Below, one piece after another: positions 1,707-6,665 of a stretch of DNA of 6,792 nucleotides. The translations under genes were made by a program, and so were the position numbers. Under the pieces are notes generated by a model. That model had not been told where the DNA came from, made no database searches, and saw only the letters and a list, made by a program, of their open reading frames with translations. Origin of the DNA: Nitrospinota bacterium (GTDB lineage Bacteria > Tectomicrobia > Entotheonellia > J063); assembly GCA_003696125.1 (NCBI GenBank), contig RFHZ01000388.1, positions 1-6,792 of the forward strand, in the 5' to 3' direction. The number at the start of each line of letters is the position of its first letter. Positions within the stretch are counted from its first letter, which is position 1.

Positions 1707-3743
1707 ATGTCTAGAGAGGGTTCTGCACAGAGAAAACGCTGGTACTCGCTCGCCGATAGACTGGCACAGATCCTTGATCGCTGGCAGCCTGCGTACAACT
1801 TGATCCTCCTCTTGAGTGCGGTCCTGGTCGGGGTAGGAACCGGATTGGGAGCGGTCTTTTTCATCCGCATGATCGCCCTGTTTAATGAACTCTCCTTTGG
1901 GCCGATACAGGGGGAATTTGCCTTTCTGGGCAGGTTCTCCATTGTCCTGGTCCCCGTACTGGGAGGACTGCTGGCCGGTCCCCTCATCACCTACCTGGCC
2001 AGTGAGGCTAAAGGGCATGGGGTGCCCGAAGTGATGATGGCGATTGCCCTGCAGGGGGGACGCATCCGCCCCCGCGTGGTGGTGGTGAAGGCTCTCGCTT
2101 CCTCCTTCTGTATCGGGTCTGGTGGGTCGGCCGGACGGGAAGGACCGATCGTCCAGATCGGAGCCTCCTTCGGTTCTACCATCGGTCAGCTCTTCAAGAT
2201 GTCGGAACAGCGGATCAAAAACCTGGTCGCCTGCGGGGCAGCGGCCGGAATCGCGGCGACCTTCAATGCCCCGATCGCCGGGGTGATCTTCTCCCTGGAG
2301 GTGATCCTGGGTGAATTTAGCATCGGCAATTTCAGTACGGTGGTGATCTCGGCGGTAACCGCCAGCGTGATCAGCCGGGTCTTCCTCGGTGATACCCCGG
2401 CCTTCATTATTCCCGAATACTCCCTCCACGATCCCCGTGAACTGATCTTCTACGTGCTCCTCGGTCTCCTCTCCGCCTTTGCCGCCCTCCTCTTTGTCAA
2501 CCTGCTCTATAAACTGGAAGACCTGTTCGATGAGTGGAAGTTCCCCGATGCCCTCAAGCCGGCGGTAGGGGGGATCTTTGTCGGGCTGATCGGTATCTAT
2601 TACTCCCATGTTTTTGGCTCCGGATTTGAGACCATCGAGCGGGCCCTGACCAGTGATCTTCCCCTGTATCTCCTGCTCATCCTCATGTTCATGAAGATCC
2701 TCGCCACCTCCTTTACCCTCGGTTCAGGAAACTCGGGAGGTGTCTTTGCCCCGGCCCTGTTTACCGGGGCCATGCTGGGAGGGGCGTTTGGCACGGTGAT
2801 GCATACCTTTTTCCCTGACATCACCGCCTCTTCCGGTGCGTACGCGGTGGTCGGGATGTCTGCCGTCTTCTCTGCAGCAGCCAGGGCCCCAATCACCGGT
2901 ATTCTCATTCTCTTCGAGATGACCAACGACTATCGCATCATTCTCCCCTTGATGATCTCCACCGTTATCAGTACCATGGTGGCAGAGTGTTTTCAGAAGG
3001 ATTCGATCTATACCCTCAAGCTCACTCGACGAGGGGTTCGCCTGGTGCGTGGCCGCATGGTCGATATCATGGAGGGGATCCTGGTAGGGGAAGCGATGAG
3101 TGTCGATGTGGAGACGGTGCCCATGGACATGCCGGTACGAGACGTGGCCCAGAAGCTTACCCGCAGTCATCACCACGGCTTTATCGTGCTGGATGAAAAG
3201 GGGGAACTCTATGGGATCGTATCACTGCAGGATGTAGAAAAAGCCCTGAGCAATGGGCGAGTAGAGAACCTGCGGGCCAAGGATATCGCCACCACCTCGC
3301 TTCTGACCGTGTACCCGCACGATACCCTTCTTACCGCACTGGAGCGACTCGATACCCGGGATGTAGGACGCCTGCCGGTGGTAGACCCGCAAAACCCGAA
3401 GAAGATCGTCGGCCTGATCCGGCGATACGATATCATCCGCGCTTATCACCGGGCCATCTTGCGGCGGGAGACGATCCAGCAGCGACTCCTGCAGCGACAG
3501 GCAGAGGAGAAACCGGAAGTCGATTTTATGGAGTTCGATCTCAACGGGGACTCGCCGGCCGTAGGGAAGCGGGTTGATCAACTCCCGTTGCCCCAGGATG
3601 CGGTCCTGGTGGCGATCCGGCGAGATGGACAGACCCTGATCCCTCATGGCAACACCTCGTTGAAGACCGGGGATCACATCACCGTCTTTGCCACCAAGGC
3701 TTGTGTAGAGGAACTGGAGCACTGCTTTGTGAATGGCCGATGA
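1707..3743 (+). CDS. ClC-family anion transporter/channel with CBS pair and TrkA-C domain (copy 1)
   Basis: Inner-membrane anion (chloride-type) transport protein of the ClC family, 678 residues from ATG 1707. The ClC membrane domain covers about residues 30-440. Pore motifs: GHGVPEV at 103-109 (classical GSGIP, with His104 in place of the ion-coordinating Ser); GREGP at 143-147 with gating Glu145; FSLEVILGEF at 195-204, where Val199 replaces the internal proton Glu of E. coli ClC (Glu203); GVFAP at 345-349 with Phe347; and SIY at 433-435, whose Tyr435 matches the E. coli pore Tyr445. The conserved block NAPIAG is at 187-192. Two CBS domains follow (about 463-515 and 525-580), which in this family often bind adenine nucleotides and regulate gating. 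An RCK-C/TrkA-C domain (about 605-668) ends the protein. The gating Glu is compatible with exchange or gating, while the Val resembles channel-type ClCs, so mechanism and selectivity are open. It is probably the first gene of the operon, behind a structured leader. Confidence 0.93.
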   Translation: MSREGSAQRKRWYSLADRLAQILDRWQPAYNLILLLSAVLVGVGTGLGAVFFIRMIALFNELSFGPIQGEFAFLGRFSIVLVPVLGGLLAGPLITYLASEAKGHGVPEVMMAIALQGGRIRPRVVVVKALASSFCIGSGGSAGREGPIVQIGASFGSTIGQLFKMSEQRIKNLVACGAAAGIAATFNAPIAGVIFSLEVILGEFSIGNFSTVVISAVTASVISRVFLGDTPAFIIPEYSLHDPRELIFYVLLGLLSAFAALLFVNLLYKLEDLFDEWKFPDALKPAVGGIFVGLIGIYYSHVFGSGFETIERALTSDLPLYLLLILMFMKILATSFTLGSGNSGGVFAPALFTGAMLGGAFGTVMHTFFPDITASSGAYAVVGMSAVFSAAARAPITGILILFEMTNDYRIILPLMISTVISTMVAECFQKDSIYTLKLTRRGVRLVRGRMVDIMEGILVGEAMSVDVETVPMDMPVRDVAQKLTRSHHHGFIVLDEKGELYGIVSLQDVEKALSNGRVENLRAKDIATTSLLTVYPHDTLLTALERLDTRDVGRLPVVDPQNPKKIVGLIRRYDIIRAYHRAILRRETIQQRLLQRQAEEKPEVDFMEFDLNGDSPAVGKRVDQLPLPQDAVLVAIRRDGQTLIPHGNTSLKTGDHITVFATKACVEELEHCFVNGR

Positions 3744-3773
3744 AGGACGTTTTTGGCCTCTTTCTTTGTCTTT

Positions 3774-3805
3774 AGCGCAGGGGTAACAGGCCTTGCCCCT
3801 GTGCT
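3774..3805 (+). repeat. Strong intercistronic hairpin between the two ClC genes
   Basis: AGCGCAGGGGTAA (3774-3786) pairs with TTGCCCCTGTGCT (3793-3805), 13 consecutive pairs including two G-U, around the loop CAGGCC. It ends two bases before the Shine-Dalgarno of the second ClC. No T-run follows on either strand, so a canonical intrinsic terminator is unlikely. More probable roles are an mRNA processing or stabilising element, or control of translation of copy 2. The pyrimidine-rich stretch before it contains CCTCT (3757-3761), which could pair with AGAGG of the Shine-Dalgarno (3807-3811). Confidence 0.65.
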
Positions 3806-3806
3806 C

Positions 3807-3813
3807 AGAGGAG
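3807..3813 (+). promoter_or_regulatory. Shine-Dalgarno of the second ClC gene
   Basis: AGAGGAG lies seven bases before ATG 3821 and directly after the intercistronic hairpin. It is a strong site and fixes the start of copy 2. Confidence 0.75.
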
Positions 3814-3820
3814 TCTCGTT

Positions 3821-5851
3821 ATGGGCCTGGTTCGCCGGTCGGGGAGCAACCGGCACCGGCTGATGGGAGGACTGGTCCACGTCCTGGATCGCCTGCAGCC
3901 GTCACAGACCACCATTTTGATCAGCACCGCCCTGGCCACAGGTATCGGGGCTGGCATCGGAGCGATCGTCTTCCGCTGGCTCATCGAGGCCATCACCCGG
4001 CTGGCTTTCACCGGTGGGAATCGAGTCCTGGCCTTTCTGGGTGCGTATCATGTCATCGTTATCCCGGCCCTGGGTGGGCTCCTGGTGGGACCACTCATCT
4101 ATTTCTTTGCCCGGGAAGCCAGAGGACACGGGGTGCCGGAGGTCATGGAGGCCATTGCCCTCCGTGGAGGACGCATCCGTCCCATTGTCGCCGTGATCAA
4201 GGCTCTGGCCTCCTCCATCTGTATCGGTACAGGGGGGTCGGTGGGGCGAGAAGGCCCCATCGCGCAGATCGGCTCTGCCCTGGGATCGACCCTCGGGCAG
4301 TGGCTCAGGCTCTCCGATCAGCGGGTGCGGAACCTGGTGGCCTGCGGGGCAGCCGGAGGCATTGCGGCCACCTTTAACGCACCGATTGCCGGGACCATCT
4401 TTGCCCTGGAGGTGATCCTGGGGGAGTTCAGCGGTACCTATTTCAGCACGGTGGTCATCTCCTCGGTGACCGCCAGTGTCATCGGACGCGCCGTCTTCGG
4501 GGATGTACCCGCCTTTGCCGTGCCCCCTTATTCCCTGGTGAGCCTCTGGGAGTTCCCGCTCTATGTCGTGTTAGGTGTGCTGGCCGCGGTGGTGGGCCTG
4601 TTCTTTGTCCTGGTCCTCTATAGATTCGAGGATATCTTCAATGCCTGGCAGATTCCGGAATATCTGAAGCCAGCGGTGGGCGGGGTACTCATCGGTGTTC
4701 TTGGCTTCTTCTTCCCCCACATCTTTGGTGTGGGGTACGGCGCCATTGAGCAGGCCCTGCACAACGGGCTCCCCCTCTCCTTCATGGCCCTGCTTTTGCT
4801 GGTAAAGCTGCTTGCCACCTCCCTGACCCTGGGATCGGGCGGATCGGGTGGGATCTTTGCCCCTTCCCTGTTTTTGGGAGCCATGCTGGGGGGAAGCTTT
4901 GGTACGGTTGTGCACACCCTGTTCCCCACCTTCACCGCCCTTCCTGGTGCCTATGCGCTGGTAGGGATGGCGGCCGTGTTTGCCGCAGCGGCTCATGCGC
5001 CCATCACCTCTGTCCTCATCCTGTTCGAGATGACCGGGGATTACCGCATCATCCTTCCCCTGATGCTGGCTACGGTCATGAGCACCTTCCTGGCCGAGCG
5101 GGCGTACGCGGAATCGATCTATACCTTGAAGCTGAGCCGGCGGGGTATCCGGCTGTTGCGCGGCCGGGTCGTCGATATCATGGAGGGGATCCTGGTAGGG
5201 GAGGCGATGAGTGTCGATGTGGAGACCGTCCCCATGGACATGCCGGTACAGGAGGTGGCTCACAAACTCACCCGGAGCCATCACCACGGCTTCATGGTCC
5301 TGGATGAGAACAAGGAGCTCTACGGGATCGTGTCGCTACAGGATGTAGAGAAGGCGATGAGCCAGGGGAATACGGAAAACCTGTGTGCCAGAGACATCGC
5401 CACCACTTCGCTTTTGACCGTGTACCCGGATGATACCCTTCTCACCGCGCTGGAACGACTCGATACCCGGGATGTGGGCCGCCTGCCGGTGGTGGATCCG
5501 CAGAACCCGAAGAAGATCGTCGGCCTGATCCGGCGTTACGATATCATCCGCGCCTATCATCGCGCCATCTTACGGCGGGAAGCGATCCAGCAGCGGCTCG
5601 TGCACCGGCAACTGGAGGAGAGACCGGAAGTCGATTTTGTGGAGCTGGTGCTGGACCGGTCATCACCGGCCGTGGGAAGGCGGATCGATGAGATCCCTTT
5701 ACCCTATGATGCATTGATCGTGGCCATTCGCCGTAACGGACACACCATGATCCCGCATGGCAATACGGTACTGAAACCCGGGGATCATATTACCGTTTTT
5801 GCCGAGAAGCATTGTGTACCGGAAGTGCAACGCTGTTTCGTGAGCTTTTGA
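3821..5851 (+). CDS. ClC-family anion transporter/channel with CBS pair and TrkA-C domain (copy 2)
   Basis: Second inner-membrane ClC protein, 676 residues, a tandem paralogue of the preceding gene with the same architecture: membrane domain (about 30-440), CBS pair (about 462-515 and 524-579) and TrkA-C/RCK-C domain (about 604-667). Pore motifs match copy 1: GHGVPEV at 102-108 (His103), GREGP at 142-146 (gating Glu144), LEV at 196-198 with Val198 at the internal proton-Glu position, GIFAP at 344-348 (Phe346) and SIY at 432-434 (Tyr434). A hand alignment over residues 100-439 gives about 65% identity to copy 1. The CBS region (about 451-605) gives about 88% and the C-terminal domain about 62%. 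Divergence in the transmembrane helices may mean different conductance or expression, or the proteins may form heterodimers, since ClCs work as dimers; both ideas are inference. Its stop is separated by one base from the start of the HAD gene. Confidence 0.93.
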   Translation: MGLVRRSGSNRHRLMGGLVHVLDRLQPSQTTILISTALATGIGAGIGAIVFRWLIEAITRLAFTGGNRVLAFLGAYHVIVIPALGGLLVGPLIYFFAREARGHGVPEVMEAIALRGGRIRPIVAVIKALASSICIGTGGSVGREGPIAQIGSALGSTLGQWLRLSDQRVRNLVACGAAGGIAATFNAPIAGTIFALEVILGEFSGTYFSTVVISSVTASVIGRAVFGDVPAFAVPPYSLVSLWEFPLYVVLGVLAAVVGLFFVLVLYRFEDIFNAWQIPEYLKPAVGGVLIGVLGFFFPHIFGVGYGAIEQALHNGLPLSFMALLLLVKLLATSLTLGSGGSGGIFAPSLFLGAMLGGSFGTVVHTLFPTFTALPGAYALVGMAAVFAAAAHAPITSVLILFEMTGDYRIILPLMLATVMSTFLAERAYAESIYTLKLSRRGIRLLRGRVVDIMEGILVGEAMSVDVETVPMDMPVQEVAHKLTRSHHHGFMVLDENKELYGIVSLQDVEKAMSQGNTENLCARDIATTSLLTVYPDDTLLTALERLDTRDVGRLPVVDPQNPKKIVGLIRRYDIIRAYHRAILRREAIQQRLVHRQLEERPEVDFVELVLDRSSPAVGRRIDEIPLPYDALIVAIRRNGHTMIPHGNTVLKPGDHITVFAEKHCVPEVQRCFVSF

Positions 5852-5852
5852 G

Positions 5853-6665
5853 ATGAACGTTTCCCAGACCCGTTTCGACTTCAGGAGATATGCCGGTTTC
5901 GTCTTTGATGTCGATGGCGTCCTCTTTCGCGGAGAGGAGATTATTGATGGAGCCAGGGAGACCCTGCGCTATCTGAAGGCGCAGGGGAAAAAGGTCTTTT
6001 GCCTGTCCAACAACTCGCGTAACGACCGCTACCAGTACGCCGAGAAGTTCCGCTCCTTCCCCCTGGAGCCGGAAGAGCTCTTTCATGCGGCACGAGGGAC
6101 AGCCGAATATATCGCCTCCCTGCACCCCCGGGCCCGGGTGGCCTTTTTAGGGGGAGAGGGATTACGGACAGAGCTGCAACTACACGACCTGACACCGGTC
6201 GAGGTGACGGTCAATCCGCCGGAAGTAGATTTTCTGGTGGTGGGACACGATCCGGAATTCGACTATGCCAAGCTCACCGGTGCGGTGAGAATCTTACGAA
6301 GGGGAGCCAGGTTGATTGCGGTCAACATGGACCGTGTTTTCCCGCAGGCTGAAGGGGATATTCCTGGACCAGCCGGTCTGGTCAAGGCGCTGGAGTACTA
6401 TACCGGTGTGCAGGCCACGGTCATCGGGAAACCGACCCCGACCCTGGCCCACCTGGCCCTGCGCAAGATGGGGATTTCAGCAGAGGAGGGGGTCATGGTC
6501 GGGGACTCCCTCCTCTCCGATATCGCCTGTGGGAAAGCAGCCGGGATGACCACGGTGCTGGTGTTGACCGGTGAAGCGAGTCTGGAGGATGTGGAGCGCT
6601 CTTCTCTGCGTCCAGACTTTGTCCTCCAGGATGTTACCGCCTTGATAGAAGAGGGAGAGACGTGA
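5853..6665 (+). CDS. NagD/4-nitrophenylphosphatase-type HAD-IIA hydrolase
   Basis: Predicted cytoplasmic magnesium-dependent phosphatase of the HAD superfamily, subclass IIA (NagD, phosphoglycolate/4-nitrophenyl phosphatase-like), 270 residues, which is normal for the group. All four HAD motifs are intact. Motif I is FDVDGVL at 18-24 (nucleophile Asp19, acid/base Asp21). Motif II is LSNNS at 51-55 (Ser52). Motif III is IGKPTPT at 191-197 (Lys193). Motif IV is VGDSLLSD at 216-223 (Asp218, Asp223). The stretch between motifs II and III holds the C2-type cap, including FLVVGHDPEFDYAKL and VNMDRVFP, which are typical of NagD-like proteins. The natural substrate cannot be read from sequence; candidates in the family are phosphoglycolate, nucleotide monophosphates and sugar phosphates. 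ATG 5853 begins one base after the upstream ClC stop and has only a weak ribosome binding site, which suggests translational coupling. Its own stop overlaps the next start. Confidence 0.92.
   Translation: MNVSQTRFDFRRYAGFVFDVDGVLFRGEEIIDGARETLRYLKAQGKKVFCLSNNSRNDRYQYAEKFRSFPLEPEELFHAARGTAEYIASLHPRARVAFLGGEGLRTELQLHDLTPVEVTVNPPEVDFLVVGHDPEFDYAKLTGAVRILRRGARLIAVNMDRVFPQAEGDIPGPAGLVKALEYYTGVQATVIGKPTPTLAHLALRKMGISAEEGVMVGDSLLSDIACGKAAGMTTVLVLTGEASLEDVERSSLRPDFVLQDVTALIEEGET

Follow-up and report, generated by a model that had tools for sequence, protein, structure and literature searches.

Two tandem ClC genes of a Nitrospinota bacterium with discordant histories of pore and cytosolic module

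A contig of a Nitrospinota bacterium (RFHZ01000388.1, assembly GCA_003696125.1; the window, i.e. the whole stretch of DNA analysed, comprises 6,792 nucleotides) encodes two neighbouring ClC proteins, and raises the question of how their cytosolic parts came to be far more alike than their pores. According to the ORF list and Pfam, the gene order is the end of an HtrA-like gene (two PDZ), a YgjP-like metallopeptidase, ClC-A, ClC-B and a HAD hydrolase. ClC-A and ClC-B share an identical domain order, namely Voltage_CLC, two CBS and TrkA_C (Pfam), and each is matched over the full length of Voltage_CLC (PF00654) with a score of 365 bits (cut-off 24.8). The features discussed below are the following:

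1707..3743, + strand: ClC-A, 678 aa, type A pore (ORF, Pfam, membrane tree)
1962..2984, + strand: ClC-A membrane domain, diverged part (Voltage_CLC, aa 86-426)
3003..3068, + strand: interval inferred to contain the 5' breakpoint of ClC-A, aa 433-454, with aa 445 as the best position (change-point analysis, AlphaFold model)
3060..3527, + strand: stretch of ClC-A (linker and CBS pair) whose synonymous identity with ClC-B is highest (same-residue codon scan)
3528..3719, + strand: ClC-A TrkA_C, of recent common ancestry with ClC-B TrkA_C (Pfam; domain-only tree, support 99)
3821..5851, + strand: ClC-B, 676 aa, type B pore (ORF, Pfam, membrane tree)
4073..5095, + strand: ClC-B membrane domain, diverged part (Voltage_CLC, aa 85-425)
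5171..5638, + strand: ClC-B counterpart of 3060..3527, offset +2111 (codon scan, exact matches in register)
5639..5830, + strand: ClC-B TrkA_C (Pfam; domain-only tree)

The identity mosaic and its synonymous signal

In ClC-A numbering, protein identity between the two genes is 59.6% (263/441) in the membrane part (aa 1-444), 87.8% (137/156) in the linker and CBS pair (aa 445-600) and 65% (50/77; about 65-67%) in TrkA-C (aa 601-678). The mosaic described in the initial annotation (65/88/62%) is real, its values being slightly off because the membrane domain had only partly been counted. The two 32-base exact matches that it listed (3060-3091/5171-5202 and 3393-3424/5504-5535) are present, and two shorter ones of 23 bases (3093-3115) and 20 bases (3345-3364) occur as well; all four lie in register at +2111. 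The differences in the CBS part fall mostly at third codon positions, as had been observed (56, against 13 and 6 at positions 1 and 2), and the divergence of the two tails at the base level amounts to 16% for CBS and 29% for TrkA-C.

The same annotation had proposed a patch of low synonymous divergence. In 60-codon windows, dS is 0.5-1.1 over aa 451-600, and in the membrane part it runs from 0.9 up to saturation, so that the patch is lower than its surroundings but not low in absolute terms; with a synonymous divergence of about 0.5-1.1 in the tract, the exchange event is therefore old. The dN of the CBS part is low (0.04-0.13). A codon scan limited to codons with the same residue in both genes, so as to exclude effects of constraint on the protein, found 48% of these codons identical in the membrane part (aa 1-444), 68% in the CBS part (445-600; Fisher p=2.5e-4 for CBS vs membrane) and 58% in TrkA-C (601-678). 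The best segment (nt 3060-3527) has 70% identical codons vs 48% outside, a value reached by 10/1000 permutations (p about 0.01). Among 2568 homologous pairs, 288 have a membrane codon identity similar to that of ClC-A/ClC-B; the CBS minus membrane codon identity of these comparable pairs has a mean of -0.016 (sd 0.067), and the maximum, 0.187, is ClC-A/ClC-B itself. Synonymous identity is thus moderately raised inside the CBS segment, and this evidence by itself is moderate, the phylogenetic evidence given below being very strong. A second, younger tract within the CBS part (dS dip near 3291-3440) was considered and rejected as not significant, since 556/1000 permutations reach the best one; there is no sign of a separate smaller tract inside the module, and one event suffices.

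Discordant ancestry of the two halves, its 5' breakpoint interval and its recurrence among relatives

Homologues were collected by a genome scan and whole-genome searches, chiefly in Chloroflexota, and 129 were aligned. Across these, the CBS pair normally evolves faster and is less conserved than the membrane domain: pairs at 58-64% membrane identity have a mean CBS identity of 42-46% (sd 7-9). The CBS and TrkA-C parts of ClC-A and ClC-B are 88% and 67% identical to each other, and at most 54% and 45% identical to those of any other homologue; in CBS minus membrane identity, the pair lies above 99.8% of 989 A x B pairs.

Trees were built from 66 homologues with IQ-TREE under a mixture model. 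The membrane tree separates type A (23 rows, including ClC-A) from type B (43 rows, including ClC-B), the split being supported at 100/96, and a tree constrained to join ClC-A and ClC-B is rejected (p-AU 3.9e-5). The C-terminal half of the membrane part gives the A/B split with one change and the N-terminal half with two. In the cytosolic tree, ClC-A and ClC-B are sisters (100/100), as they also are when CBS (100) or TrkA-C (99) is analysed by itself. Separate trees per part, which the initial annotation had put forward as a check, thus branch differently: the CBS part clusters within the genome and the membrane part splits, i.e. one segment joins the paralogues while the remainder separates them. 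The partial gene conversion suggested there (or another recombinational replacement) is borne out by the conflicting trees, the AU tests and the family norm; its restriction to the CBS part is not, because the sisterhood of TrkA-C in its own tree places this domain in the exchanged unit. The lower identity of TrkA-C fits a faster-evolving domain. A parallel case is L163/L035, with 62% identity in the membrane part, 92% in CBS and 69% in TrkA-C.

A change-point model in which column conservation is taken into account places the switch at aa 445 (range 433-454, lnL gain of 39.7), which makes the 5' breakpoint definable. The switch of other mixed pairs lies at 408-444 (L163/L035), 441-496 (L123/L046) and 437-463 (L190/L046), and in some weaker mixed pairs the range is wide or the switch comes later. 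In the AlphaFold model (mean pLDDT 88.6, pTM 0.70), helix R (SIYTLKL) corresponds to 434-441, its Tyr aligning with Tyr445 of ClcA, and the linker that follows is of low confidence (pLDDT below 50 at 449-452). As the switch point coincides with helix R and this linker, the seam is the joint of pore and cytosolic module.

ClC-A/ClC-B is one case of recurrent tail exchange among related bacteria. Indeed, the pore-type label changes 11 times on the cytosolic tree (10-15 in 1000 bootstraps) and once on the membrane tree (in all 1000 bootstraps); the A/B labels were set from the membrane tree, whose single change is by construction, and it is the cytosolic count that carries weight. Forcing the A types into one clade of the cytosolic tree costs 659 log-likelihood units (p-AU 6.7e-5). 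The supported mixed clades include: (i) ClC-A and ClC-B of this contig, (ii) L163 (A) with L035 (B), (iii) L052/L146/L181 (A) with L045/L172/L180/L054 (B), with both types present in G084 and in G113, (iv) five A types within a group of 17, the rest being type B, (v) L173/L068 (A) with L166/L160/L169 (B), and (vi) L037/L156 (A) with L035/L154/L155 (B). L163 and L035 belong to different genomes, which suggests that copy loss or between-genome transfer may also play a part. The A and B copies are often non-adjacent. Among six genomes examined that have both pore types, only that of the present contig now has a pair that is strikingly homogenised; no such homogenisation was seen in the tandem pair of G205 or the divergent pair of G089. 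A further tandem ClC pair, L176 of G243 (2077-4257 and 4185-6410, minus strand), has identities of 68% in CBS, 48% in the pore and 37% in TrkA-C, and the CBS part of its second gene resembles that of L152 as well (69%).

Outside the pair, the tail of L034 (type B pore, 53-54% identity) comes closest, the position of the pair in the tail tree being weakly supported. No other close homologue occurs in the class of this genome, which comprises five genomes; searches at order level around G117 and G066 (two genomes each) yielded no closer relative, 400 genomes drawn from across the phylum produced few matches and none that was a closer pair, and the best match in plasmid records had about 49% identity. 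The relatives listed for this genome include only four genomes from its phylum, all of its class. The genes closest to the ClC pair are those of Chloroflexota, although the composition of the contig fits the genome; a horizontal gain, or an origin in a neighbouring phylum, is possible.

Probable recombination, rival explanations and known parallels

The pair very probably consists of old-split paralogues in which the cytosolic module of one gene was overwritten. On this view, the tandem consists of paralogues that parted long ago, one with a type A and one with a type B pore, and homologous recombination after the split, most likely gene conversion, would have replaced the linker, CBS pair and TrkA-C of one gene with those of the other, with a boundary just past pore helix R; the module would then have diverged anew, more quickly in TrkA-C. 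We infer that this step was a conversion between the two genes within one genome, which seems likelier than crossover because both genes are complete and in order.

Under the alternative named in the initial annotation, strong purifying selection would have kept the CBS pair alike as a regulatory module common to both proteins, without recombination; this agrees with the low dN of the CBS part and with the majority of third-position differences. However, the CBS pair is the faster and less conserved domain in the family, both tails are at most 54% identical to all others while the ClC-B pore is 71% identical to a pore from another genome, and synonymous identity is raised as well; the conflict between well-supported trees and the AU tests refute such selection as the sole cause, which makes it a very improbable explanation, and selection may have acted in addition to recombination. 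The tail could also be what both genes kept from a more recent tandem duplication, with a foreign pore having taken the place of the original pore half in one of them. The tree conflict alone is silent on which half moved, and either way unlike halves were joined at the same seam; nevertheless, pore type gives a clean two-way split (one change in all 1000 bootstraps) whereas the tails are scattered, so that it is simpler to regard the tail as mobile, and a pore replacement is unlikely.

Lastly, the assembly is fragmented (990 contigs, contamination of 7.98%) and metagenome contigs can be chimeric, and an assembly or binning artefact mixing two genes in one contig could be invoked. It is hardly credible: tails that differ at 16% (CBS) and 29% (TrkA-C) of bases are not one sequence assembled twice, a like pattern is found in other assemblies (L163/L035), and the composition of the contig correlates with that of the genome's other contigs at 0.87-0.95, the values for the compared loci of other genomes being 0.07-0.74, a match that speaks against a misbinned contig.

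ClC proteins are dimeric, and their CBS domains bind nucleotides in several members. On these general grounds, one may guess that the tail serves a shared ligand response or mixed dimers, and that the overwritten module has persisted in that two different pores share one sensor input or pair via the cytosolic dimer interface; a selective reason of this kind is compatible with the candidate conversion. More tentatively, the cytosolic module of Chloroflexota-type ClC proteins might be an exchangeable cartridge, swapped repeatedly between two pore lineages at the seam after helix R and kept for the same signal or for mixed dimers.

Conversion limited to one domain between paralogues is known elsewhere; for ClC proteins with CBS domains, where the exchange recurs at one seam, no report of it was found in the open-access literature. 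Bacteroidia and Chloroflexi both show conversion of domain 3 of RF1 and RF2, in opposite directions (Ishikawa et al. 2015, PMC4530459), likewise between old bacterial paralogues, in a single domain of common function and with conflicting trees. That work concerns an internal domain of about 100 aa in soluble release factors (two cases), whereas in the ClC membrane channels the exchanged unit is a regulatory module at the C-terminus, about 230 aa long, and the cases are more numerous. In mammals, the C-terminal part of the tandem paralogues TLR1/TLR6 has been repeatedly homogenised by conversion at similar boundaries, the N-terminal part having diverged, and this was ascribed to shared binding partners (Kruithof et al. 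2007, PMC2077338); these are eukaryotic receptors with independent events in 9/9 species, unlike the bacterial channels, homogenised in some genomes only. A study of 26 prokaryotic genes under long-lasting concerted evolution (Wang and Chen 2018, PMC6053082) describes, as here, a recurrent long-term conversion of bacterial paralogues, but reports it per gene and not per domain, and the words chloride and transporter are both absent from its main text.

If repeated tail exchange is indeed the explanation, nature has run many pore-sensor swaps in ClC proteins, and the cytosolic module would be portable between pores that are about 60% identical, with the cutting seam marked. Such natural chimeras would be ready material for studying the communication between CBS domains and the ClC pore. 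Whole-gene ClC trees would then call for caution, as they would blend two histories.

Pore residues and genomic context

Pore residues were compared over the 129 homologues (columns of aa 103, 144 and 198 in ClC-B). Glu_ex (in GREGP) is kept in 129/129, the E202 and Tyr445 positions are kept too, and a His occupies the position of ClcA Ser107 in 126/129. Glu_in (E203 of ClcA), the mark of antiporters that was looked for, is absent, being replaced by Val in ClC-A and ClC-B and by V/I/L/T in all homologues. ClC channels carry Val at this position, and a few antiporters are without the Glu (PMC3519907). The combination of His at the Ser107 position, Glu_ex and V/I/L/T at Glu_in is a channel-like signature in a bacterial ClC subfamily, and, judging from these residues, ClC-A and ClC-B may be channels. 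They resemble the ClcA proteins of Salmonella and E. coli (1kpl, 1kpk) in the ClC fold and motifs (Glu_ex in GREGP, E202, Tyr445), but add the CBS pair and TrkA_C, and their homologues differ at the Ser107 (His) and Glu_in (V/I/L/T) positions.

ClC-A and ClC-B are separated by 77 bases, and the ClC-B stop from the HAD start by 1 base; the close spacing of ClC-A, ClC-B and the HAD-family gene (3744-6665) suggests a single operon. An Rfam search gave no match, and promoter and terminator scans gave matches not above those of shuffled sequence. Upstream of ClC-A, at 1568-1590, lies a perfect 10-base inverted repeat, GGCTCTGCAG-GGA-CTGCAGAGCC, the sole exact copy genome-wide, which is possibly an operator or a leader hairpin.
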